Positions 11,330 through 23,166 of a DNA stretch of 23,166 bases are shown in pieces (positions within the stretch are counted from its first letter, which is position 1; each line of letters starts with the position of its first letter). The notes below the pieces were generated by a model, which searched no databases, was not told where the DNA came from, and saw only the letters and a program-made list of their open reading frames with translations. The stretch comes from a virus. The stretch covers positions 1-23,166 of the IMG/VR virus record IMGVR_UViG_3300025132_000316; one strand, 5' to 3'. The translations under genes were made by a program, and so were the position numbers.

Positions 11330-12022
11330 TTACCCCATAGACATTGTTGCTACTTGAAAGTCCAAATTAAATTCTATTGTTCCAGAATCAGCAGAAATTG
11401 TTGTATTAAAGTTTCTAACGAATCCTTTTAAACCACTAACTTCTAATCCATCACTACTTAAATTAGGAAAATCTGATTGAAGTAATGAATCAATATTTTC
11501 ATCATATCCGTGTAATGTCCCAATATTATCAGAGTTCCTTACTTTATATGTAAAAGGTATGGTAGGTAAATTAGAAATATCAGTTGTTGCATCTACACCA
11601 GAATGATATTCAAATGTTTTATCTACTCTAGATGGTAATAAAATAATTAACTCATTTAAATTTTGATGAGGTTGTAAGAAAGAAGAATCAACATATGAAT
11701 GAATTAATTGCGCTATTTCAAATGCAGTAAATGATTTTGATGTTTCACCATCAGTATCATTATATTTTTTTGCAATATTCATTTCAATTATTGTTCCAGA
11801 TAAACTAATAGTTTTATCAGCCATACCTAAATCTAATGAAGCAATTGATGATTCTCCCGTCATTAAACCGCTAAATGGAACAGGAAAAGACATTACAGTT
11901 TTACCAGTTGATATTTGAACATTATTACATAACAATGGTATTCTGTTAGTTGTATATAAGTCACCTGTCTTTCGAGATTGTAAATTCAAAAGGACTCTAA
12001 ATCCATCACTATAACTAACCAT
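11330..12022 (-). CDS. Distal tail / baseplate protein downstream of the tape measure (230 aa)
   Basis: The gene starts 8 nt inside the tape measure gene and is the first tail-tip gene after it, the place of the distal tail (Dit) or first baseplate protein in siphoviruses. The sequence is mixed alpha/beta. NVQISTGKTVMSFPVPFSGLMTGESS, then DLGMADKTISLSGTI at about residues 65-80, recall baseplate components that start with a beta barrel. The C-terminal GLKGFVRNFNTTISADSGTIEFNLDFQVAT is an amphipathic beta pair of the kind used in ring oligomers. No catalytic motif is seen. The assignment rests mainly on position and beta character. A LysM or hub-associated protein is an alternative. Confidence 0.5.
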   Translation of the reverse strand: MVSYSDGFRVLLNLQSRKTGDLYTTNRIPLLCNNVQISTGKTVMSFPVPFSGLMTGESSIASLDLGMADKTISLSGTIIEMNIAKKYNDTDGETSKSFTAFEIAQLIHSYVDSSFLQPHQNLNELIILLPSRVDKTFEYHSGVDATTDISNLPTIPFTYKVRNSDNIGTLHGYDENIDSLLQSDFPNLSSDGLEVSGLKGFVRNFNTTISADSGTIEFNLDFQVATMSMG

Positions 12023-13820
12023 ATCTTCTTACCCCCGATGATGTATGTCTATTTATTTCACGATTAATGTGTTCACCTACTTTCTTAGCAATATCTCTAA
12101 TTTCTTGGTCAGATGCACCAATTCTTCCTTGAACCTGAACTGTTATATTATTAGTTACACCACCTCTCATGTTCTTAGATTGTGCATTAGAAGTAACTTG
12201 AGAACCTTTTGGTAAAGAAACTATTTCAGGGCCTCTTTCACCAACAACTGTTAATGGTGTAGTTACAGTTCCACCAGTAGATGCAAAACCAATAGCACTA
12301 GCAATAGCAGTTCCAACTGCAAGTCCTAACATTGTTATCCATTGGAATGAAGCAATTAAACCAATAATTAATAGTATTCCCATTATTAATGCCGCAATTT
12401 GCGCTGTCCATTGAATCGCCGCCTCTACCCAATTAGCAGTATCTTCAACGGCTTGAATCCATGCACCGTGAAGTAATGCCAAAACTGCTCCTAAAAGTGC
12501 GCCCAAAATCAGTCCTAATGATATAAGTCCAGCAAATATTACATTTTTTACTATTGATAAACCAAGCGAAATAACTTCCATAATATCTCCATTTACAAAT
12601 GCATCTTTTAAATCTATAAAATCTTCATATAAACTTTCAAAAACACCGCTTAAAATCCCAAATCCCCATAATAATCCATCACGTAATTGTCCAAAGGTTA
12701 TTAATAATGATGGACCATTTCTTTGAAAAAATTTATAAATTGCATAAACTCCTATTAAAGCAGCAACAAATAAGAAACTGTATTTCATTACACTAGTGGC
12801 CAATCGGCCAATTGCGTTTTGTAACCTCATCATCCTTGCTTGCCATTTTTCACCTTTTAATCTGTGTTCTTTCAGTTTTTCTTCTCTATCTTTGAACCAT
12901 TTTAATACTTTCCCTTCACTTTCTTGTGCTTCACCAGCAGCCTTTCCTGCTCCTAAAACACTCTTTAATCCTTTATCCTTTATTTCTTTAGTTTCGGCTC
13001 TAAGGTCTTTTAAATCTTGTTGTGCCAGTTTCTTTTCTTCTAATGTATTTTTAAGTGCTTCTTGCCATCGTTCTAATTTTTTCTCATCTGCTTCTTCACC
13101 AAATATTTTTTGTTCATATTTTATTTCATCTTTGAGTTCTTTAATTTTTTTGTTTGCCTTTGATATGTTATCTTTTTGTTCATCTATTTTTTTTGGTAAA
13201 TCTCCTAAATCTACCTTTTCGGCCATTTTAGCAACACTACCAACAACACCTGCGCCGCTTTTCCAGAAACCATCAGCAAATTTTTGTAGTCCTGTAATAA
13301 AGGGGGAATCTTGTGCTGCTTTTTCTAATTCTTTACCCATTCTCCTTTGAACTTTTTTAGCAGTTACTAATTGTGATTGAAACGCGCCTTCAACTAATTT
13401 TTCTGCTTGTTCTGTTATTCTTTCTTTTTCAAACACTTCTAATTCATCTTTTGTTTTACCAGTAGCAGCAATTAAAGCCGATGCTACTGAATCAAATTCA
13501 GGAGTATCATCTAAATTTTTTAAAGAATCGGTTAAATAATCAACAGATTCAGTAATCTTCTTCATATTTTTAGCATTTTCAAGCATCTTTTTTGTTCCAG
13601 AATCTTGAACATCATAAAAAACAGTTAATACGTTTCCAACCGCACGAATTTTGTTTTGTATTCTCCATAGACCACTTCCTGAAAGTAGTCGAGAACCAAT
13701 AGTCCATAATTTACTATTTTCAGATAAATTAGCGAAAGAGCGACCTAAACCATCATTTTGCTCTTGTAATACAGCACTGGCTTCTGCGAGAGAATTTATT
13801 GTTCTCTCCATTTCGCTCAT
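12015..13820 (-). CDS. Tape measure protein (601 aa)
   Basis: The architecture is that of a tail tape measure. An alpha-helical N-terminal part is followed by a long charged coiled coil at about residues 200-330 (many Lys/Glu/Asp). Three hydrophobic stretches lie near residues 343-363, 425-448 and 473-510. The C-terminus carries VGERGPEIVSLPKGSQVTSN, the hallmark block found near the end of many phage tape measures. It follows the G/GT chaperone genes, as in lambda-like viruses, and its start overlaps the chaperone stop (ATGA). It sets tail length and is injected with DNA. By the usual rule of about 1.5 angstroms per residue the tail would be roughly 90 nm. RBS GAGGAAT. Confidence 0.92.
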   Translation of the reverse strand: MSEMERTINSLAEASAVLQEQNDGLGRSFANLSENSKLWTIGSRLLSGSGLWRIQNKIRAVGNVLTVFYDVQDSGTKKMLENAKNMKKITESVDYLTDSLKNLDDTPEFDSVASALIAATGKTKDELEVFEKERITEQAEKLVEGAFQSQLVTAKKVQRRMGKELEKAAQDSPFITGLQKFADGFWKSGAGVVGSVAKMAEKVDLGDLPKKIDEQKDNISKANKKIKELKDEIKYEQKIFGEEADEKKLERWQEALKNTLEEKKLAQQDLKDLRAETKEIKDKGLKSVLGAGKAAGEAQESEGKVLKWFKDREEKLKEHRLKGEKWQARMMRLQNAIGRLATSVMKYSFLFVAALIGVYAIYKFFQRNGPSLLITFGQLRDGLLWGFGILSGVFESLYEDFIDLKDAFVNGDIMEVISLGLSIVKNVIFAGLISLGLILGALLGAVLALLHGAWIQAVEDTANWVEAAIQWTAQIAALIMGILLIIGLIASFQWITMLGLAVGTAIASAIGFASTGGTVTTPLTVVGERGPEIVSLPKGSQVTSNAQSKNMRGGVTNNITVQVQGRIGASDQEIRDIAKKVGEHINREINRHTSSGVRRYG

Positions 13821-14604: not shown

Positions 14605-16458
14605 TCATCCTTGAATAATCCAACCACCAGTGTATTTGGCTTCATTTAATTTTCTAGCCATGATAGTAACTGAAACTTCAATTGGTCCTTTATCATCAGG
14701 AAGTGGAATATCTGCACCAGTAATCATATAATCTTGGAATTTAAGATTAAAGGTTTCTCCAGTATCTTTTTGGAAATTAAACTCTAATAAACTATCACTA
14801 GCATTTTCAGTTTGGGAACGTAATTCATCCCAAATCTTAGTGTCTGTAATTAAACATGTAGCCTGAATTTCATAAGTTCTTTGTGCTGGAATATGCTCAG
14901 ACATAATTTGCCTATTATAATTACCAACATATCTTTGTTGTGTAAGATTATTATTAATAGTAACACTTGCAGTTTTAACTCTAGCAAAGTTAGAACCAAA
15001 TATCTTTAATGAACCTTCAAAGTATTGGAAGGGTAAATTATAATCTCTAGAATAGAAATTAAATAAATCACTTGCTGATTTATCAGCAGTATCAATATCA
15101 CCATTTACATCAATTGACCTTTGAATAATATATTTTGATGGGCAATCAAAAATACGCCTTGTAGCAATATCAACACTTGCTTTAACTTCTTGACCTTCTT
15201 CAAAATTAAGTGTTAATGTATTGACTTGATTTCCAGTCAATACTCTAGCATACATATTTTTATTATTTGTTTCTGCATCAACCTGTTTAGATGTATCGGA
15301 TTCTTTACGATAGACGACTTCAAGTGCAAAAGAAGGTAATCTTTCTGAATTAGCAGCACCGAAAGTATAATTTAATTTGTTAGTGCTAAAATTACTTGTT
15401 GTTATTGGAGTATATTCTAATACTTGACCTGCTATTGTTCCTGCTCTTAATGCTGGAAGTATTACTTCATTTGCTCTTATTTTAGATTTTAAAACTTTAT
15501 GGAAAAATGGCCCACTAACATCATCTATACCTGTTGAATTATCATTAAACAATACATCTCCTACTCCGTGGTCAGAATTAGTTGTTTCACCATTTGTTCC
15601 ACTTACCCCTGTTCCATACGCAGTTCCGGGAGTTTGTGCATCTAGTAAAGTAATACTTCCAAGTGCATAATAAAGCCAAGACATATTATTTAATGATATA
15701 TCTAATGATGCACCACTAACTGTTTCTGCTCCTTTGTATTGAAATGCATAATCTCTTGATGCACCAAAGGCTAAATTTAATTGTTTCATTTCTGCATCAA
15801 TAGAAGGTGGACTAAATGAATTTACAAGCCCTAACCAATTATCTGAATTTAATACTCTTCCTTCATCAACATATAATGCAGCACTACTTAATGTTCCTGA
15901 TGCACCTGTTCTATCAACTGTTAAAGTATTAGCAGTAGTATTAACAACAGTTACAGTTCCAAGAAATTGACTAGCACCAAAAGTAGTTCCTGAATTATAC
16001 AGTTTATCTCCAACATTGTATAATGCACTATTTCCTGCTGTTGCTGGTGTTACAGTAGTGCTACTAAGTGTAGCATTCCCATAAGATGTAATTGTAAGTG
16101 GAGCAGGACAAGGTGCGCCAAAAGGTTGAATTTCTAAATCAGTAATAGAATCTGGAAAATCATCAGCAACACCACTAAATAATAAAGAATCAGTAGTGTT
16201 ATATGCAATTCTAGCAAATACTGTGCTATCACCTACAATTTTAGCCATACAACCAGTGTATAAATCTGGAATCAACTTATAATAAAGCCTTGAATTATCT
16301 CCAATGTTTATCCTAATTAAATGAGTTCTATTTATACCATCTCTAAATGTTCTACTTTCGGCTTCAGGATTCGCAATTGACCCTTCACCAACATTAATGT
16401 AAGTTTCTGGGATTAAACTTACAGACGCACCTGCTCCAATAAATACTTCGTTACTCAT
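14605..16458 (-). CDS. Major tail tube protein, unusually long (617 aa)
   Basis: The C-terminal 150 residues have the signature of tail tube proteins. VKTASVTINNNLTQQRYVG is the beta strand and loop that forms the tube ring. YEIQATCLITDTKIWDELR...SLLEFNFQKDTGETFNLKFQDYMITGADIPLPDDKGPIEVSVTIMARKL is the strand pair and closing barrel. The gene lies between the tail terminator and the tail chaperones, as expected. Usual tube proteins are 150-350 residues. Here extra beta-rich segments (about residues 115-195 and 270-320) probably form surface decorations. RBS is GGTGA, sharing its first bases with the TAG stop of the previous gene. A separate sheath gene is absent, so the tail should be non-contractile. 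Confidence 0.8.
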   Translation of the reverse strand: MSNEVFIGAGASVSLIPETYINVGEGSIANPEAESRTFRDGINRTHLIRINIGDNSRLYYKLIPDLYTGCMAKIVGDSTVFARIAYNTTDSLLFSGVADDFPDSITDLEIQPFGAPCPAPLTITSYGNATLSSTTVTPATAGNSALYNVGDKLYNSGTTFGASQFLGTVTVVNTTANTLTVDRTGASGTLSSAALYVDEGRVLNSDNWLGLVNSFSPPSIDAEMKQLNLAFGASRDYAFQYKGAETVSGASLDISLNNMSWLYYALGSITLLDAQTPGTAYGTGVSGTNGETTNSDHGVGDVLFNDNSTGIDDVSGPFFHKVLKSKIRANEVILPALRAGTIAGQVLEYTPITTSNFSTNKLNYTFGAANSERLPSFALEVVYRKESDTSKQVDAETNNKNMYARVLTGNQVNTLTLNFEEGQEVKASVDIATRRIFDCPSKYIIQRSIDVNGDIDTADKSASDLFNFYSRDYNLPFQYFEGSLKIFGSNFARVKTASVTINNNLTQQRYVGNYNRQIMSEHIPAQRTYEIQATCLITDTKIWDELRSQTENASDSLLEFNFQKDTGETFNLKFQDYMITGADIPLPDDKGPIEVSVTIMARKLNEAKYTGGWIIQG

Positions 16459-17192: not shown

Positions 17193-18290
17193 TCACTCAA
17201 TTAAGAATACAATATTTTTCTTACCTTCAATAATCTTATTTGCTTCTTCAATTAGAATATCATGCTTTTCTTTTAATGAAATTCCTGATTGAGTATCTGC
17301 AATTAAGATAGAATTATCATCATGTCTAATAATTTCTGCCGCTACTAATTTTGTAGCAGCGTCATGAATAGCAGAATTAACTCTTTTAGAACCAGCAACA
17401 TAAGTTACTCTAATAGAATGTTTCTTAAGATAAGGATAGTTTTTCAAAAAGAATATTTTTCCTTCACTGTTGATAGTCCAATAATCTCCTAATCTTTTCA
17501 TAGTTTGATTATCTGTAAAAGCAGTTACAGTTGCTCCTGAACCTTGAACAGTAATACCACAATTAGTTCCATCATCGCCCGGTAATTTAGAAGAAATAAT
17601 TACTTTAGTGCTATCTTCTGAATCTGTTGTAGCATAAAAGAAATCTGATACAGAAAAAGAATCACCACCTTCTTCTTCTATACTTTTAGCAGAAGTAGCA
17701 CCAGTAAATTCAGCAGTTTTGTATGGGAATATTTCATTAATACATGCTACTAATTCTTGTGCAGTAGTTTTAGGACCATAAGAACGATTAAATCTAGTAG
17801 ATACTCCACCTGATTCTGCTGAACGTATTACAAAACTATGTGGCCCAACAGTTAGTGTAATACTAGTTAAACTACTTAATGAAGAACTTAAAGTAACTGA
17901 TGCAGTAGCAGATGCTAAATCAAGATAATTATTACCTTGCCAAACTTCTAATCTTAATATCTTTCTAACGTTAGAATGGTCTAATTGAACAAAACCAACA
18001 TAATCAATATAATAAGCCATTGGTTGATATGGTAATCTACTAAATTCAAAATCGTGATATTCATCATTATAAATTACTGGGCGAAAAGATGTTTTCGTAG
18101 AATCATCAATTTTGCCTTCTACTCTTTTAATTATTTTTCCAACCTCTGCTAGAGTTGGAGTAGTATTAGCATCAAAATCTGCTATTTGTAATAGGCTTGC
18201 TACATCAGAAGCAGTTGTATAATAACCTCTTCCCGCAGTATAATTTACATCAATAGCGGTATAATCGCTTGGGGAAGAAAAAGTAGTCAT
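17193..18290 (-). CDS. Head-tail connector / adaptor with an inserted beta domain (365 aa)
   Basis: Residues 24-70 (YTTASDVASLLQIADFDANTTPTLAEVGKIIKRVEGKID) have the helix layout of gp6-like head-tail connectors, where a DVasLL-like helix is followed by a helix ending in the conserved small and basic residues. The last 70 residues (AIHDAATKLVAAEIIRHDDN...LKEKHDILIEEANKIIEG) supply the C-terminal helices. Between them residues about 120-260 form a separate beta-rich insert with SFVIRS...TTAQELVACINEIFP...VIISSKLPGDDGTN, a pattern seen in small beta domains of virion proteins. Usual connectors of this family are 100-150 residues. The start overlaps the previous stop (ATGA). It should sit below the portal and join the tail. 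Confidence 0.65.
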   Translation of the reverse strand: MTTFSSPSDYTAIDVNYTAGRGYYTTASDVASLLQIADFDANTTPTLAEVGKIIKRVEGKIDDSTKTSFRPVIYNDEYHDFEFSRLPYQPMAYYIDYVGFVQLDHSNVRKILRLEVWQGNNYLDLASATASVTLSSSLSSLTSITLTVGPHSFVIRSAESGGVSTRFNRSYGPKTTAQELVACINEIFPYKTAEFTGATSAKSIEEEGGDSFSVSDFFYATTDSEDSTKVIISSKLPGDDGTNCGITVQGSGATVTAFTDNQTMKRLGDYWTINSEGKIFFLKNYPYLKKHSIRVTYVAGSKRVNSAIHDAATKLVAAEIIRHDDNSILIADTQSGISLKEKHDILIEEANKIIEGKKNIVFLIE

Positions 18291-19357
18291 GTTTGCCTCA
18301 CTTCATTTTCAAGGGTTGAATAGTTTCTAGATATAACATTTAATACTTCTTGTAAATCTTTTTGCATTTCATCCGGTGTAAATGCTTGTATTTTAGTTCG
18401 TGCTAATTTTTCTGGTGTGTTATCTTTACCTGTTTTTACAGGTATTTTAAATCTGGTTCTACCAATATTAGGAGTAATAGTATAATTTGTTAAAGTTATA
18501 TTTACTCTCCCCTTTACATCATTTTCTATTATTTCTAATCTAAAGGTTTTGAATGTATCGTATTTATACACTCCTTGTTCAATATTCGCATTCATATGCG
18601 CCATGTTAAGTTTTCCATCCTTTTCTAATTTGTTTATAATTTGTCCAGTATTTGCTGTTCCGACAACAAATGGAGTTTCTTTATTGGCTGTAATATTAAT
18701 TTCCTTTGTATCAGACATTACTGTATATTTAATCTTTGCTTTAACATATAAATCTGTTATTTGGTCATGAGTATCTAATATAGTTGTATTATCGCCTTCA
18801 TTTTTACCGAGCATTTCTATTTGCATTTTAATTGGGTTTGCTTCATCGTCATCTTTAGTAAATACCTCTTTTAAATTATTATTTAAAATAGCATTTCTTA
18901 ATTCACCTTCTTCGACTTCTTTCTCTGAATCAGCAAGACGTTCAACACCGAATATTTTTCCACGAATAAAACTATCATTTAAATTAGAAACAGTTAAATC
19001 TTCTAATACATCTTTATTTTTAAATTTCTCAGATAAAGTTTTTCTATACTGAAGGTCTTCTTTAGATTCAATTAATCCAGCCTCTATTAATTTTTCTCCT
19101 ACTTCATCAGTAAAGAAATCTAATAAATCAGTGTTTGCTACTTTTGTTAATTCGCCCTGTATAATAACTTTTAATTTTTCTTCATCCTCTTCAGAAACTA
19201 CTTCATCAACATCTAAATCCTCTAAAAAATTATCATCTATCTCTCTAAGAGAAATTGAATAATCACTCACTAAGTAAGCAAGCATATGACTATTATAGCG
19301 TTTTTCAATTTCTTTAACACTTAAATCCTTTTGCCCATCAAAAAGATTTAGTTTCAT
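18287..19357 (-). CDS. Acidic two-part virion-cluster protein, unknown function (356 aa)
   Basis: The N-terminal half (residues 1-170) is helical and very acidic (DLDVDEVVSEEDEEKLK; SEKEVEEGELRNAI). The C-terminal half (about 190-310) is beta-rich (TDLYVKAKIKYTVMSD; KTFRLEIIENDVKGRVNITLTNYTITP) and ends in a helix that includes PDEMQKDLQEVLNVISRNYSTL. This looks like a helical arm plus a beta domain. The gene sits between the WW-like protein and the connector and is joined to the connector by ATGA overlap. A portal is unlikely (no clip or crown pattern, too short). RBS AGGTGAT is 4 nt ahead of the ATG and its first base is in the TAG of the previous gene. Confidence 0.6.
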   Translation of the reverse strand: MKLNLFDGQKDLSVKEIEKRYNSHMLAYLVSDYSISLREIDDNFLEDLDVDEVVSEEDEEKLKVIIQGELTKVANTDLLDFFTDEVGEKLIEAGLIESKEDLQYRKTLSEKFKNKDVLEDLTVSNLNDSFIRGKIFGVERLADSEKEVEEGELRNAILNNNLKEVFTKDDDEANPIKMQIEMLGKNEGDNTTILDTHDQITDLYVKAKIKYTVMSDTKEINITANKETPFVVGTANTGQIINKLEKDGKLNMAHMNANIEQGVYKYDTFKTFRLEIIENDVKGRVNITLTNYTITPNIGRTRFKIPVKTGKDNTPEKLARTKIQAFTPDEMQKDLQEVLNVISRNYSTLENEVRQT

Positions 19358-19366
19358 TTAAATCAC

Positions 19367-20059
19367 CTAAGCCAACCATTTAGCCCATGCAGCACCTTGA
19401 CGCGCTAATCCTACCATTGTTGAACCTAAATGTAACCCGCTAGAAGGAGGTTCAAAAGTCATTTGTTGCGTATTTGGGTCTATCCAATATGGACGGCCAT
19501 AATTATCTTGACCAGCCGGAGGAACCGGATAATTTGTTTGTTGAGGCATAGGTTGATTCATCCCCGAATATGCCCCCATAGATGCACCTCCTACTGCTCC
19601 CATAGCACCCATTTGAGCCATAGGCATCGCACCCGCATTAGTAGGATTATTGGGTTGTGGAGGCGCAAAACCTTGTGATTCAAGGTATTGCTGTTTGGCT
19701 AACTTACGTTGCATAACCACCTCAGAATTAACAGCCGAATTTAACAATGCTTGTAAATCTAATTCAATGTTTTCCTGAGTAATTTTCTCATAATCCCTTA
19801 AAGTGTCTGTATTAACACTAATAATGGTTCCATCTTGTTTAAATTCTAATTTGGCTAACATTTGAGATACTACTCTACTAGTAACATCTTCCATTAATTT
19901 TTCTAATGCTCCTAAAAATTCAGGACCGTGATATTGAAAAAACTCTTCAACATGATTATCCTGTAAAGTTAGTAAATTATTAACTGTTTTAAACGTGCTA
20001 TTATTACTACTACTTATCTGTTTAGCCAAATTGCCATTACTCGTTCCTAAGATTCCCAT
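19367..20059 (-). CDS. Helical protein with Met/Pro/Gly/Gln-rich linker and WW-like C-terminal motif (230 aa)
   Basis: Residues 20-125 are helical. Residues 130-178 are a low-complexity stretch rich in Pro, Gln, Met, Gly and Ala (NNPTNAGAMPMAQMGAMGAV). Residues 179-205 contain GRPYWIDPNTQQMTFEPP, which follows the core of a WW domain (G-R-x-Y-[YFW]-x-[DN]-x-x-T-x-x-x-T-[WF]-x-x-P). However, the first signature Trp is missing and the second is Phe. The C-terminus (GLARQGAAWAKWLA) may be an amphipathic helix. No family is recognised. The start overlaps the TAA of the upstream gene (TAATG). It is perhaps an internal head or scaffold-like protein. Its flexible linker suggests an assembly adaptor. 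Confidence 0.6.
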   Translation of the reverse strand: MGILGTSNGNLAKQISSSNNSTFKTVNNLLTLQDNHVEEFFQYHGPEFLGALEKLMEDVTSRVVSQMLAKLEFKQDGTIISVNTDTLRDYEKITQENIELDLQALLNSAVNSEVVMQRKLAKQQYLESQGFAPPQPNNPTNAGAMPMAQMGAMGAVGGASMGAYSGMNQPMPQQTNYPVPPAGQDNYGRPYWIDPNTQQMTFEPPSSGLHLGSTMVGLARQGAAWAKWLA

Positions 20060-20706
20060 TATTCTTCACCTATCTTTGTGTTCTGCACCAAAATTAAATT
20101 ATCTATTCTTTCAATATTAGATTTCATTTCGGTGAGTAATCTATAAACTTCTTCTGTTGAAGTTTCTGTTTCTGATTTAGGTGGTTTTATTGTCCATCCT
20201 AATGCTGCTAATGATGCCATATCTTCTCGCTTTAATCTAGTTAAAGGCCCTGTATTCCCTGTGAACATTTGGGGCATTTTAGGTTTAGGAATATAACCTC
20301 TAAATTCTAAACCACTTTCTTCTGCTAAAATCTGTTGCTCTAACATTTCCATTTGTTTCCACATTGCTGCGTGTTTTTGGCAGTAAGTTCCCCTAATTGG
20401 TTTTCCTTTAGTAACTTCTGTTAAAGGTATTCCGGGTCTTAATGGGTCAGAAATATCCCATTGATGAAAAGTCCCACAAACAACACAATGGTTTTGTATT
20501 GCATATTTAGCACCCCATTTAAAAATTAAGAATTTTTTCTTTTCTGGTAATAATACCTTTCTTATTTCTTTTAGTTGCTTTTTAGATTTTATACTACTAT
20601 ACTCAAATTTTTCTACTGGGCCACTTGACCTAGCCTGTTCAAATTTAGGTAAAAATCTATTAGGAGCATCTATTCCAGAACCAATTAATGAAGGTTGTTG
20701 AAACAT
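20059..20706 (-). CDS. Protein with a Cys2-CysHis metal-site candidate (215 aa)
   Basis: The start is taken as ATG 20706 because GGTGA lies 5-6 nt ahead. A GTG at 20715 lies inside that ribosome binding site and is rejected. Residues 74-77 are CVVC and residues 109-112 are CQKH, a CxxC...CxxH layout that could bind zinc (the 31-residue gap holds a His-Gln-Trp-Asp and a Pro-rich loop). The N-terminal 60 residues are basic and helical. Downstream are a Met/Gln-rich helix (MWKQMEMLEQQILAEESG), Pro-rich linkers, and a C-terminal helix (EEVYRLLTEMKSNIERIDNLI) fit for coiled-coil pairing. It follows the GTPase gene directly (TAGGTGA junction) and may act with it. The function is unknown. Confidence 0.65.
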   Translation of the reverse strand: MFQQPSLIGSGIDAPNRFLPKFEQARSSGPVEKFEYSSIKSKKQLKEIRKVLLPEKKKFLIFKWGAKYAIQNHCVVCGTFHQWDISDPLRPGIPLTEVTKGKPIRGTYCQKHAAMWKQMEMLEQQILAEESGLEFRGYIPKPKMPQMFTGNTGPLTRLKREDMASLAALGWTIKPPKSETETSTEEVYRLLTEMKSNIERIDNLILVQNTKIGEE

Positions 20707-20715
20707 ATTATTCAC

Positions 20716-21378
20716 CTAATAATCTTTTATCATAGTCATTATTCCACGATATACCATTTCCGGGTCTGATTTAGCACTTACTATATATTTGTATGTAGGT
20801 ATTCCTATCCCATTTAATTTTTGCATTCCATATTTAAAAGGTTCAAAGATTGGATGTTTATCTATTGTTTCTCCTAAAGGATAATTTTTTCCCCATAAAT
20901 CAAACTTATTTGCCCATACTCCTATTGCTTCTGGATAATCTTTATGTTTTTTCTTTTTTCCATTAGGCCATGTTTCAGACATTATCATATCCACTAAATA
21001 TTTCCATGCTACTTGATGTTCTAAACTCGCTCTATTATTTAAATGTCTATCATCTATCATAAATATAACATACTTAGGTTTTCTTTTTTTGTAATCTTTT
21101 AACCAAAGGCTCCAATAAATTGATTCTCCACCTACATCTGAACTTCTAACTGTTTGAATATTACCATCAATTTTAACTATTTTTCTAGTTGGTTTTTCTA
21201 ACCCTACTGTTCTTTTTTTAATATCTGGAACTTCTCCCCTTGTTCTAATTTGATGATGTAATGTGGTTTTTCCTACTTTACTAACTCCATAAATACCAAA
21301 ATTAATTGCGTGAACTTTTTTATATATTGCGAATATACCTTCTAGTAATACTACTGTAAATCCTGCTACAACCGACAT
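20716..21378 (-). CDS. Arf/Ras-type small GTPase with N-terminal hydrophobic anchor (220 aa)
   Basis: All five G-box motifs are in order at family spacing: G1/Walker A GVSKVGKTT (31-39), a switch I region with candidate Thr (57 or 64), G3 DVGGES (81-86), G4 ANKFD (156-160) and G5 SAK (201-203). The stretch after G3 (SLWLKDYKKRKPKYVIFMIDD) matches the Arf pattern (pLWrhYf....glifvvD), so the Arf/SR-beta branch is the best fit. Residues 3-19 (VVAGFTVVLLEGIFAIY) are hydrophobic and probably anchor the protein in a membrane, in place of the Arf amphipathic helix. The catalytic Gln of Arf/Ras is Glu85. It starts one base after a 1-TM gene stop (TGA-T-ATG), within the virion gene operon. It likely works as a membrane-bound switch. 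Partner and cargo are unknown. Confidence 0.88.
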   Translation of the reverse strand: MSVVAGFTVVLLEGIFAIYKKVHAINFGIYGVSKVGKTTLHHQIRTRGEVPDIKKRTVGLEKPTRKIVKIDGNIQTVRSSDVGGESIYWSLWLKDYKKRKPKYVIFMIDDRHLNNRASLEHQVAWKYLVDMIMSETWPNGKKKKHKDYPEAIGVWANKFDLWGKNYPLGETIDKHPIFEPFKYGMQKLNGIGIPTYKYIVSAKSDPEMVYRGIMTMIKDY

Positions 21379-21379
21379 A

Positions 21380-21592
21380 TCACCACAAAACGTGTTTAAA
21401 CGATTCCCATGCTATATGAAAAAAATCTATACCAAATGAACCAGCAATATTACCTAGTAATAATGAGGCGACAACAGCAGTTATCCCCCAAATCCATGCC
21501 CTTAATCTGGCTATTGTTAATTCAGCAGAATGCGCCCTTTGAATATCAAAAGCCACATTGTTTGAATCATAACCAAATAGTGCATCAATCAT
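21380..21592 (-). CDS. 70-aa single-pass membrane protein upstream of the GTPase
   Basis: An N-terminal polar and amphipathic region (residues 1-30, RAHSAELTIARLRAW) leads into one transmembrane helix at about residues 32-54 (IWGITAVVASLLLGNIAGSF). A short aromatic C-terminal part (FFHIAWESFKHVLW) could lie along the membrane. The gene ends one base before the GTPase start and begins shortly after the 2-TM gene stop, so the three form a compact membrane module. GGGGAT, 4-5 nt ahead, is the RBS. A holin or membrane scaffold are possibilities. No family is recognised. Confidence 0.65.
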   Translation of the reverse strand: MIDALFGYDSNNVAFDIQRAHSAELTIARLRAWIWGITAVVASLLLGNIAGSFGIDFFHIAWESFKHVLW

Positions 21593-21600
21593 GTTATCCC

Positions 21601-21984
21601 CTATTGTTCAATAGAGGCTAAAAATTGACTTCCAACCTCATTTGTATTAGATTGAGTTATATAATTAGGTGTTATATTAAATTGATTCATAGCATCACGA
21701 AGTTTCTTTTTTTGTTCTTCATCACGCTGTTTTCTTTCCCAATAAGACCTAATTCTTCTATCTAACAATCTAAGTTCTATCCAATCATTGAGAGCCATAT
21801 CAAATATAGCCTTCATAATCATAATTCCTCCAATTGTAATTAAACTGAATAATACTGCATGACTTAATGGAGTCCACGGTAATTCCCCACCGTAAATACC
21901 ATAAAAGAAAACATTTAACCCACAACAGGAGCCAACAAAAAGAATAGCCATAATTAAGCGAGTATCTTTATCAATTGCTGCCAT
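21601..21984 (-). CDS. Two-pass membrane protein with basic coiled-coil tail (127 aa)
   Basis: The start is ATG 21984, 4 nt after AGGTGAT. A GTG inside that site (21993) would add three residues and is less likely. Transmembrane helices are at about residues 10-30 (IMAILFVGSCCGLNVFFYGIY) and 43-64 (LFSLITIGGIMIMKAIFDMAL), joined by a short loop (GGELPWTPLS). Residues 66-100 are a charged helix (LRLLDRRIRSYWERKQRDEEQKKKLRDAM). The rest is a polar tail. A hairpin membrane anchor with a long basic cytoplasmic helix suggests recruitment of a soluble partner, perhaps the GTPase. It is the first gene of the membrane trio. The function is unknown. Confidence 0.65.
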   Translation of the reverse strand: MAAIDKDTRLIMAILFVGSCCGLNVFFYGIYGGELPWTPLSHAVLFSLITIGGIMIMKAIFDMALNDWIELRLLDRRIRSYWERKQRDEEQKKKLRDAMNQFNITPNYITQSNTNEVGSQFLASIEQ

Positions 21985-21993
21985 AATAATCAC

Positions 21994-22272
21994 CTACTGA
22001 AATTCAATGGAACAAGCAACTGCTCCTGTCGTTTCTTCAAAGTATAATCCATCTTTACAGATAACACCATGCATATCAAATTCAATTGATTGACCTGCTG
22101 TTAAAGTAATTCTTGCTACTTCAAGTCCTGAATTACTAGTGCCATCAAATACCTTAATTAAAGCACCTGCTCCTGCTTGTTCAGAAACATGAATACTAAC
22201 CAATTTACATTGATGCCTAGCAACTACCGCAGAAGCGGTTAAAACTCCAGATGTTCTACAACCAGCAACCAT
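21994..22272 (-). CDS. Small beta-sandwich virion protein, decoration type (92 aa)
   Basis: The sequence follows the pattern of a small beta protein found widely in virion clusters of marine tailed viruses: KLVSIHVSEQAGAGALIKVFDGTSNSG (about residues 23-49), ARITLTAGQSIEFDMHGVICKDGLYFEETTGAVACSIEF (53-91). This corresponds to 'l.sv.v....g.g.v.lyDGts.sg', an 'aG.s...d..gv.f..Glyv..tg.v..tv.y' hairpin and a closing strand. Such proteins are usually attached to capsids or fibres. It has three Cys (5, 22, 72; Cys86 as a fourth). RBS GGAGAG. It ends in TAG, which doubles as the start of the next gene's ribosome binding site. Confidence 0.6.
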   Translation of the reverse strand: MVAGCRTSGVLTASAVVARHQCKLVSIHVSEQAGAGALIKVFDGTSNSGLEVARITLTAGQSIEFDMHGVICKDGLYFEETTGAVACSIEFQ

Positions 22273-22297
22273 TTTAATCTCTCCGAAAACGACTAAT

Positions 22298-22342
22298 CCG
22301 CCTTATTTTTATGAGGGGAGCAATCCCCTATATACTTGGCGG
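22298..22342. repeat. Nested inverted repeats between head genes
   Basis: An outer CCGCC/GGCGG pair (22298-22302 with 22338-22342) encloses an inner AGGGG/CCCCT hairpin (22314-22318 with 22325-22329). The element lies in the 70-nt gap between the 106-aa and 92-aa genes, one of the few true gaps in the operon. No oligo-T run follows on the minus strand, so it is not an obvious terminator. Confidence 0.5.
22328..22336 (-). promoter_or_regulatory. TATA-like box, possible internal promoter
   Basis: On the minus strand the gap reads AAGTATATAG, TATA-like, about 60 nt ahead of the 92-aa gene start. A start site about 25 nt on would leave a leader of roughly 30 nt ending in GGAGAG. It could raise expression of the membrane, GTPase and connector genes separately from the capsid gene. 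The evidence is sequence only. Confidence 0.25.
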
Positions 22343-22663
22343 TCAAGAAGCCTTTTTAACCGTTTTCTTTGGTTTAATGGTCTTCTTTTTACCAAGTAAT
22401 TTAATTGTTAATTCTTCTGATGAAGCATTAGACATACCTAATACTGTCCTAAGATTCCTTAATCCAGCACCTTCTAAATTAAGAAGGTAATCTCGGTCCT
22501 TTTCATCAAAAGTAATTTCTAATGAAGAACCACCTAATGCGACAGAAGCGTATTTAGTGGGTAGATTAATTGGCTTCTCATGATTAAAAGTAAATTCCTC
22601 ACCTTCAAATCTAAGAGTTAAATCCCCATGTGGAGATTTGCTCGACATTTTGGCTAATGCCAA
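22343..22663 (-). CDS. 106-aa virion-cluster protein with basic C-terminal tail (TTG start)
   Basis: I choose the TTG at 22663: GGGTGAT ends exactly 4 nt before it, the spacing used by several neighbours. An ATG at 22648 is too far from that site, and longer forms would run deep into the upstream gene. The product has a beta-rich middle (GDLTLRFEGEEFTFNH; ASVALGGSSLEITFDEKDRDYLLNLEGAGLRNLRTVLG) and ends in KLLGKKKTIKPKKTVKKAS, a highly basic tail that could touch DNA or the capsid interior. It follows directly after a decoration-type gene. No family is recognised. Confidence 0.55.
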   Translation of the reverse strand: MALAKMSSKSPHGDLTLRFEGEEFTFNHEKPINLPTKYASVALGGSSLEITFDEKDRDYLLNLEGAGLRNLRTVLGMSNASSEELTIKLLGKKKTIKPKKTVKKAS

Positions 22664-22679
22664 ATTAATCACCCAATGC

Positions 22680-23039
22680 TCAAATAAGGCCCCAAACTCT
22701 GACTCGGATTTCACCAATATTATCGGTATTACTCGCTTCTTTAGCGTGTATTTGGAATCTATCATTTTGTCCATGATATTTTCCACCATTGGTCGCACCG
22801 GACATTACTTCGGGAGCAATCATTCTTGCTTCATAACCACCTGTAAGGGTATCAACAGAAATACCTGTTACAACAACACAATTAATTGTGCTTAATCCTA
22901 GAGCAGTAGCGAGAATTTCTTCGCCGTTAGCAGTATAAGATGTAATATCCAATACTGCATCAACGACATATTCATCACCACTAACTCTAGGACGAGTAAA
23001 TCCCTTAGAATCGGCTAAGATTGTTACTGTATGTGCCAT
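22680..23039 (-). CDS. Capsid decoration / head-associated protein candidate (119 aa)
   Basis: The first gene after the presumed capsid gene, 37 nt downstream of its stop, with RBS AGGAGAG. The sequence is a beta protein with SGDEYVVDAVLDITSYTANGEEILATALGLSTINCVVVTGISVD, then GGYEARMIAP, and a C-terminal strand IGEIRVRVWGLI. The 'D.tsYt.gGe.l....lGls.i..V' block is common in small proteins next to capsid genes in tailed viruses, thought to be decoration proteins or structural head proteins. There are no catalytic residues of note. The alternative is another minor structural protein. Confidence 0.6.
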   Translation of the reverse strand: MAHTVTILADSKGFTRPRVSGDEYVVDAVLDITSYTANGEEILATALGLSTINCVVVTGISVDTLTGGYEARMIAPEVMSGATNGGKYHGQNDRFQIHAKEASNTDNIGEIRVRVWGLI

Positions 23040-23065: not shown

Positions 23066-23097
23066 AAGATTAAACCTCACTTGAGGTTTGTAATCTT
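23066..23097 (-). repeat. Near-perfect hairpin across the capsid gene stop
   Basis: AAGATTAAACCTC (23066-23078) pairs with GAGGTTTGTAATCTT (23083-23097) with a 2-nt bulge and a short loop (ACTT on the plus strand). The stop TGA of the capsid gene (23077-23079) lies in the stem. No T-run follows on the minus strand, so it may protect or mark the 3' end of the capsid mRNA rather than end transcription fully. Confidence 0.6.
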
Positions 23098-23166
23098 ACC
23101 TTGACCCTTAAAGAATGAACAACCTACTTCTGCAATTGTGCGGTATAATGCCTGATTACCGAGAGT
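23077..23166 (-). CDS. C-terminus of a probable major capsid protein (partial, 29 codons visible)
   Basis: The frame is open from the window edge and reads TLGNQALYRTIAEVGCSFF, then KGQGKITNLK and a TGA stop. The position fits a major capsid gene: a lone longer gene just upstream of decoration-type genes and head-tail connectors, ending in a strong hairpin. NQALYRTIAEVG looks like the last helix and loop of an HK97-like capsid subunit. This is an inference from position and a few residues. A scaffold or other abundant head protein remains possible. Confidence 0.45.
   Translation of the reverse strand, partial: TLGNQALYRTIAEVGCSFFKGQGKITNLK

Follow-up and report, generated by a model that had tools for sequence, protein, structure and literature searches.

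Introduction

Haloferax volcanii possesses ArvA (OapA), a small GTPase of Arf-like type that carries a membrane helix at its N-terminus and drives outward vesiculation: Deletion of ArvA results in fewer vesicles, and its overexpression in more (PMC10927574). The zinc-ribbon protein ArvC, its operon partner, behaves as a negative regulator, since more vesicles are formed upon its deletion, and the authors suggested that it may be a GAP (PMC10927574).

Magroviruses are predicted viruses of marine Poseidoniales, with the Aoguangviridae carrying a split PolB and GroEL (PMC10768690, PMC12999244, PMC5332604). The Magrovirales have genomes of 90-110 kb that encode PolB, RFC-S, a DNA ligase, an ERCC4 nuclease, a chaperonin, an HK97 MCP, an S78 protease, a portal and TerL (PMC10768690, PMC12999244, PMC10160649). 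They are predicted to be lytic (PMC10768690) and presumably rank with the most abundant viruses in ocean surface waters (PMC10160649).

Here, we analyse a small GTPase encoded in the virus record IMGVR_UViG_3300025132_000316, a genome fragment of 23,166 bases, the whole of which is referred to as the window. The gene covers positions 20716-21378 of the minus strand and encodes 220 amino acids; read on the plus strand, the same interval contains stops throughout.

Results

The GTPase gene lies in the head-gene block of a magrovirus

The genes that surround the GTPase gene are given here from upstream to downstream.

23077..23166, minus strand: C-terminus of the HK97-type MCP, cut at the contig end (MCP family against HVTV-1 gp120, E 7e-23)
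22680..23039, minus strand: decoration-like head protein, occupying the place of HVTV-1 gp122 (by position; no Pfam or PHROG match)
21994..22272, minus strand: p92, a head-associated protein of 92 aa that opens a tightly packed run (locus comparison, gaps)
21601..21984, minus strand: TM130, a protein of about 127 aa for which two membrane helices are predicted and whose C-terminal tail is charged (locus comparison)
21380..21592, minus strand: TM70, 70 aa, one predicted membrane helix and a RAHSA motif, adjoining the GTPase gene upstream (locus comparison)
20716..21378, minus strand: small GTPase of 220 aa, with a membrane helix at the N-terminus (translation, motifs, AlphaFold, structure search)
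20059..20706, minus strand: Zn218, soluble, with an invariant CxxC...CxxH motif (C74, C77, C109, H112), adjoining the GTPase gene downstream (alignment of relatives)
19367..20059, minus strand: p230, conserved, following Zn218 (locus comparison)
17193..18290, minus strand: head-tail connector, a relative of HVTV-1 gp125 (halovirus match)
14605..16458, minus strand: tail tube (Pfam Phage_tube_2, E 3.7e-10; halovirus tail tubes)
12015..13820, minus strand: tape measure protein (phrog_19914, E 1e-6)

With the capsid C-terminus and the decoration-like gene upstream and the connector, tail tube and tape measure genes downstream, the head-gene setting that had been proposed for the GTPase was recovered. 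The tail tube and connector proteins of the window match those of haloarchaeal tailed viruses; the alignment of TerL with that of HVTV-1 was poor and was set aside. In the long relatives (54-96 kb), PolB is split into two ORFs (e. g. G001:C1:67864-71123), and those that were annotated also encode an RFC small subunit, an ATP-dependent ligase, an ERCC4 nuclease, a portal, TerL and an S78 protease. A chaperonin is present in about half of the 20 long relatives checked; it is mostly GroEL-like and in one case strongly thermosome-like. The relatives of 86-96 kb carry the Magrovirales gene set, of which the window is a 23 kb piece. The contig is a fragment of a magrovirus, a tailed virus of marine Poseidoniales archaea according to the host assignment in the literature.

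Several features of these genomes were observed in passing. The slot between p230 and the connector gene (p356, window 18287-19357) is filled by an ORF of about 235-810 aa that is often unrelated among the loci, in a gene order that is otherwise rigid. On the minus strand, a strong GGGG..CCCC hairpin (window 22273-22345), which folds more stably than the majority of shuffled sequences (z -2.4), is located between a 151-aa ORF and p92; it may serve as a terminator or a processing site in front of the run from p92 through TM130 and TM70 to the GTPase gene. The record IMGVR_UViG_3300021958_000021 (L125/L332) has 184,733 bases, double the usual magrovirus size, and carries two genes for GroEL-like proteins at a distance of about 90 kb; it may be concatemeric, consist of two genomes joined together or result from an error of assembly. 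Finally, many small and otherwise unrelated ORFs of one long relative (G001, about 9-32 kb; L080-L081) open with MxWKDILK, MSWEEILK or MWKDEIIK, as if they shared an N-terminal tag or signal.

Motifs and predicted fold identify a divergent Ras-superfamily GTPase

The original prediction had named the G motifs GVSKVGKTT, DVGGES, ANKFD and SAK; all of them were found, and RTVG in switch I can be added.

21313..21375, minus strand: N-terminal hydrophobic helix, residues 2-22 (AlphaFold helix; hydrophobicity and invariance in 153 relatives)
21262..21288, minus strand: G1 / P-loop GVSKVGKTT, residues 31-39 (sequence; motif positions invariant)
21202..21213, minus strand: switch I / G2, R56-T57-V-G59 (R, T and G invariant in 153/153)
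21121..21138, minus strand: G3 / switch II DVGGES, residues 81-86 (alignment of relatives)
20899..20913, minus strand: G4 ANKFD, residues 156-160 (alignment of relatives)
20770..20778, minus strand: G5 SAK, residues 201-203 (alignment of relatives)

In the 153 relatives, G31, G36-K-T-T39, R56, T57, G59, D81, G83 and G84 are invariant, as are W92, N157, K158, D160 and S201-A-K203. The catalytic position, residue 85, which is Gln in Arf and Ras, is occupied by Glu in 143 of the 153 relatives and by Gln in the other 10.

The hydrophobic N-terminus that had been noticed in the single sequence proved to be a feature of the family, with a mean Eisenberg hydrophobicity of 0.65 for residues 2-19 and with G6, F7 and E13 invariant in the 153 relatives. 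An Arf-type helix can, however, not be assigned: Position 2 is occupied by Ser in no fewer than 90% of the representatives, the Arf-type Gly2 is absent, and the moment is low (0.19). Since the helix is hydrophobic and has this low moment, the anchor looks transmembrane-like, as opposed to the amphipathic helix of the Arf type. Both membrane insertion and GTP binding are predicted for the protein.

The AlphaFold model, obtained with an alignment of 38 members (pLDDT 77, pTM 0.77), consists of a Ras-superfamily G domain that follows one helix. The order of its elements, b1-a1-b2-b3-a2-b4-a3-b5-a4-b6-a5, corresponds to the six-stranded alpha/beta topology of G domains; the predicted structure is thus a Ras/Arf GTPase fold and not a P-loop fold of another kind. 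With this model, Foldseek retrieved 1,315 PDB chains at E <= 1e-3, Rab proteins coming first. In a second comparison with VIA-align, in which rows at most one Z unit apart count as tied, Arf6 (2a5d)/Arf1 were at the top, aligning over 160 residues with Z 16.8, an rmsd of 2.5 A and 21% identity. They were followed by a RagA-like GTPase from Lokiarchaea (Z 16.2), by SRbeta (15.7) and by the Asgard Arf proteins (about 15.5-15.6); the chains of Arf, SRbeta, Rag and G-alpha proteins covered Z values of 14.8-16.8.

The profile models gave a mixed picture. For the window protein alone, the Pfam matches were weak and under the cut-off (Roc 0.0015, Ras 0.016, MMR_HSR1 0.054). Among 38 representative relatives, MMR_HSR1 was matched by all, Ras and SRPRB by 32 and Pfam Arf by 7, in every case weakly. 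The NCBIfam model small_GTP (TIGR00231) was likewise matched by all 38 representatives (best E 2.2e-6); the window protein scored 16 bits, under the cut-off of 42.5 bits. It is therefore below the curated cut-offs of TIGR00231, and also below those of PF00071 and PF08477, and it does not reach the gathering score of Pfam Arf (PF00025) or any other Pfam cut-off. A comparison of the GTPase profile by hhalign yielded 92.8% for K-Ras versus 13.5% for Arf1, the sequence of the latter having been confirmed against PDB 1r8q; this preference lends no support to membership in the Arf family on sequence.

The protein combines traits of both groups. Of the Arf type are the DxGG[QE] motif, the invariant Trp 11 residues past its Asp, the Thr-x-Gly in switch I and the helix before strand 1; of the Ras type are the interswitch RKIVKIDG (RKQVVIDG in K-Ras) and the SAK at G5. 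The designation as Arf-like therefore stands for the fold, with Arf6/Arf1 as the top match, and for the DxGG...W spacing, but not for the profile preference, the Pfam Arf matches and the Ras-type SAK. Taken together, sequence and model support a small GTPase of the Ras superfamily whose fold is Arf-like, but not an Arf family member. It is by its fold and its motifs, rather than by the scores of curated models, that the protein is a divergent member of the Ras superfamily (TRAFAC P-loop GTPases). A chance match to the motifs was rejected based on the fold, the invariance of the motifs in 153 relatives and the small_GTP matches of all 38 representatives.

The GTPase is a constant part of the magrovirus head module

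Relatives of the GTPase are encoded on at least 374 stretches in IMG/VR. In order not to bias the counts toward searches with the GTPase itself, loci were gathered via the MCP: All 54 loci with at least 4.5 kb downstream contained the GTPase gene. In a second MCP sample, which partly overlaps the first and was ordered by resemblance to the HVTV-1 capsid, the gene was present in 47 of 48 loci and in 47 of the 47 magrovirus loci, the lone exception, L337, being a different archaeal tailed virus. When loci with room downstream were found via TM130, the result was 67 of 67. These samples were drawn from the at most 80 loci listed per scan and consist of capsid-bearing fragments; published groups of magroviruses without structural genes (PMC10160649) are outside these counts. 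The same gene thus occurs at the same position in the related viruses, as 54/54 and 47/47 magrovirus MCP loci attest. Contamination or a host fragment as the source of the gene was ruled out, since it sits alike in every magrovirus locus sampled.

A scan of 84,980 genomes for cellular homologues, performed with short conserved peptides that distant relatives would escape, identified only two contigs, both in a MAG assigned to Maricaulis in the Alphaproteobacteria (L100, NZMJ01000024.1, and L101, NZMJ01000101.1), which encode the GTPase at 61-66% identity. These contigs are most likely mis-binned magrovirus sequences in a public bacterial genome. No relatives were detected in the phage GenBank collection or in plasmids, no paralogues in four magrovirus genomes, and no matches in the halovirus regions. 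The GTPase is a fixed core part of the magrovirus morphogenetic module and no stray capture.

The mean p-distance of the GTPase (0.294) is lower than that of the MCP (0.331), i. e. the GTPase is the more conserved protein, and with a dN/dS of about 0.065 it is under strong purifying selection.

Two membrane proteins and a zinc-motif protein accompany the GTPase

In 157 loci, TM70 is located directly upstream of the GTPase gene in 140 and TM130 is next in 140, whereas on the downstream side Zn218 adjoins the gene in 108 loci and comes one ORF later in another 38. The median gaps are 9 nt between p92 and TM130 as well as between TM130 and TM70, 3 nt between TM70 and the GTPase gene and 1 nt between Zn218 and p230; such short gaps are consistent with coupled translation. 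The distances of the GTPase correlate with those of TM130 (r 0.88), p230 (0.875), TM70 (0.86) and the MCP (0.73), which partly reflects shared ancestry.

In a crude hydropathy scan of four genomes of 86-96 kb, the membrane proteins shared by all or almost all of the genomes were the GTPase, TM130, TM70 and the tape measure protein alone, with TM70 slightly under the threshold in one of the four; the other recurring match was the C-terminus of the chaperonin, identified as such from its sequence. For TM130 and TM70, searches against Pfam, PHROG, NCBIfam and the PDB returned no match, and there was no match to holins, the families of which are very diverse. Zn218 gave no sequence match to ArvC/DUF2072 or to Arf GAPs. 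Neither DUF2072 nor DUF2073 was matched when the Zn218 members (at E <= 10) and the other cassette proteins were scanned with filters that mostly drop matches with E above about 0.1. The AlphaFold model of Zn218 is of low confidence (pLDDT 61, pTM 0.31).

The Druskaviridae lack the GTPase in the corresponding slot

The Druskaviridae HVTV-1 and HCTV-1 share the order MCP, decoration, connector with the magroviruses, and where the latter have the GTPase cassette they encode a single small protein with one helix. These slot proteins, HVTV-1 gp124 (L079:18406-18738) and HCTV-1 gp116 (L336:5511-5840), are conserved and unannotated, and are candidate membrane or release proteins of the haloarchaeal viruses. 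Like TM130 and TM70 of the magroviruses, they are small membrane proteins encoded between the head decoration and connector genes; the Druskaviridae differ in that their slot has no GTPase and in that no homology of gp124 and gp116 to TM130 or TM70 was detected. Their regions also contained no match to Zn218 or p230. In two Saparoviridae, no membrane protein was predicted in the corresponding slot. As judged by presence and absence, the cassette was probably gained in the magrovirus lineage.

Discussion

The GTPase with its two obligate membrane partners provides a named and testable candidate for the step by which tailed viruses of archaea leave hosts that have no peptidoglycan. According to a review from 2015, isolated archaeal viruses had no known holin gene at that time (PMC4456609); a structure-based survey of 2025 proposed some putative holins for archaeal viruses. 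Since the magroviruses are predicted to be lytic, since isolated archaeal viruses were without a known holin gene as of that review and since the trio is found in all sampled capsid-bearing loci, the GTPase, TM130 and TM70 are the leading candidate for the exit step of these viruses. We suggest, with slightly less than even confidence, that the protein is a membrane-anchored GTP switch that acts late and remodels or opens the host membrane for exit together with TM130 and TM70. The GTPase would be made late, along with the head proteins, and its N-terminal helix would hold it in the cytoplasmic membrane of the host with the GTPase domain on the cytoplasmic side. There, it would pair with TM130 and TM70; the invariant Glu13 within the helix suggests a fixed partner. 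The GTP/GDP state would then set when and where the two partners remodel or open the membrane, and the virions would thereby leave a cell that has no peptidoglycan wall. Zn218 may be a regulator or an effector of the GTPase. The broader idea that magroviruses exit or assemble by means of a dedicated GTP-gated membrane machine composed of the GTPase, TM130 and TM70, perhaps with Zn218 as the regulator, is put forward tentatively and with still more reserve.

The late role in assembly at membranes or in egress that had originally been proposed is possible, and the position of the cassette bears on the choice between the two: It occupies a central place within the head block and does not close the late operon, and assembly fits this position at least as well as egress. 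The main rival to an exit role is accordingly a membrane platform in which the GTPase and TM130/TM70 recruit, time or place portal or capsid assembly and do not open the membrane, comparable in idea to the membrane-associated prohead initiation of phage T4. This reading draws on the location of the cassette between the capsid/decoration and connector genes, with Zn218 and p230 close behind, and on the distance correlations, according to which the GTPase evolves together with the proteins of the Zn218/p230 side; the Druskaviridae, however, build similar heads with one single-helix protein only and with no match to the GTPase, Zn218 or p230, and we regard a pure assembly platform as rather unlikely. 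The neighbourhood of the decoration-like and p92 head genes would also suit a virion component, with the GTPase and the membrane proteins being packaged, or associated with the head, and acting upon entry on the membrane of the newly infected cell. Hydrophobic helices are, however, unusual in capsid components of tailed viruses, a precedent was not found, and the tape measure protein already provides conserved hydrophobic segments, all of which makes an entry function quite improbable.

It is also conceivable that the GTPase is directed at the host, where it might compete with or redirect small GTPases involved in vesiculation, division or polarity, or block superinfection. Vesiculating GTPases are present in haloarchaea and other archaea (PMC10927574), and a membrane-bound viral form could compete with them. 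Accessory genes that modulate the host are expected to come and go, but this gene is strictly present, fixed among the head genes and more conserved than that of the MCP, and a host-directed role is therefore considered unlikely. The takeover of host membrane traffic by a captured gene, as initially envisaged, is for the same reason less likely than a core late function: All sampled magrovirus loci that bear the capsid gene contain the GTPase. Finally, the GTPase fold might have been retained for binding alone, as a scaffold that is independent of the nucleotide. The Glu at residue 85 in 143 of 153 relatives indicates that hydrolysis may be altered; yet all motif residues that contact the nucleotide and Mg are invariant, which would be unexpected if no nucleotide were bound, and such a scaffold appears very improbable indeed.

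If the proposed exit or assembly function is correct, the GTP-gated machine would be a release or remodelling system of a kind unknown in tailed viruses that is built on the switch family of eukaryotic membrane traffic. A Ras/Arf-type switch, best known from that traffic, is now found among the core structural genes of a tailed virus, which is relevant to how widespread the use of these switches in membrane processes is among archaea and the viruses that infect them. The magrovirus literature that was searched does not mention the GTPase; the founding paper and two later surveys were outside this coverage, and a prior annotation is possible. A search for literature that pairs Caudoviricetes with small GTPases found only a citation of the ArvA work. 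Virus-encoded small GTPases are known from giant viruses, but a strictly conserved one in the head module of a tailed virus was not found described in the literature searched.

Comparison with known systems

Among the 50 matches listed from the BFVD viral models, all are proteins of large eukaryotic DNA viruses. The Ras/Rab-like GTPases of giant eukaryotic viruses are virus-encoded as well but, unlike the magrovirus protein, are not linked to the head module of a tailed virus. With Ras and Rab proteins (PF00071), the viral GTPase shares the best profile match (K-Ras), the SAK motif and the RKxVxIDG interswitch; it differs from them by DxGG in place of DTAG, by the lack of a C-terminal lipid motif, by its N-terminal anchor and by the score of the window protein under the cut-off. 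SRbeta (SRPRB, PF09439) resembles it in having an N-terminal anchor followed by an Arf-like domain, as reflected by the structural match and the weak SRPRB matches of most representatives. In contrast to SRbeta, the viral protein matches that model only weakly, is encoded in a head-gene setting, and no partner of the SRalpha type was seen. Arf6 and Arf1 (PF00025) have in common with it the fold, the DVGG[Q/E] motif, the Trp at +11, the helix before strand 1 and the Thr-x-Gly in switch I; it departs from Arf/Arl proteins in its Ras-type interswitch and SAK, in the lack of a myristoylated Gly2 helix, in having mostly Glu for Gln71 and in remaining below the Pfam cut-off.

ArvA, a strong precedent for the proposed role, was compared with the viral GTPase by description. 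Both are archaeal proteins with an Arf-like fold, an N-terminal membrane helix, a zinc-motif protein encoded in the operon and no clear Pfam subfamily. ArvA is cellular and its helix is amphipathic, whereas that of the viral protein is transmembrane-like. ArvB (DUF2073) and ArvC (DUF2072) were not detected in the viral cassette, no homology between the partners was found, and two membrane proteins are encoded upstream in the virus. By analogy, the magrovirus GTPase would work like ArvA; the likeness concerns the way of working and is no claim of membership in the ArvA group.
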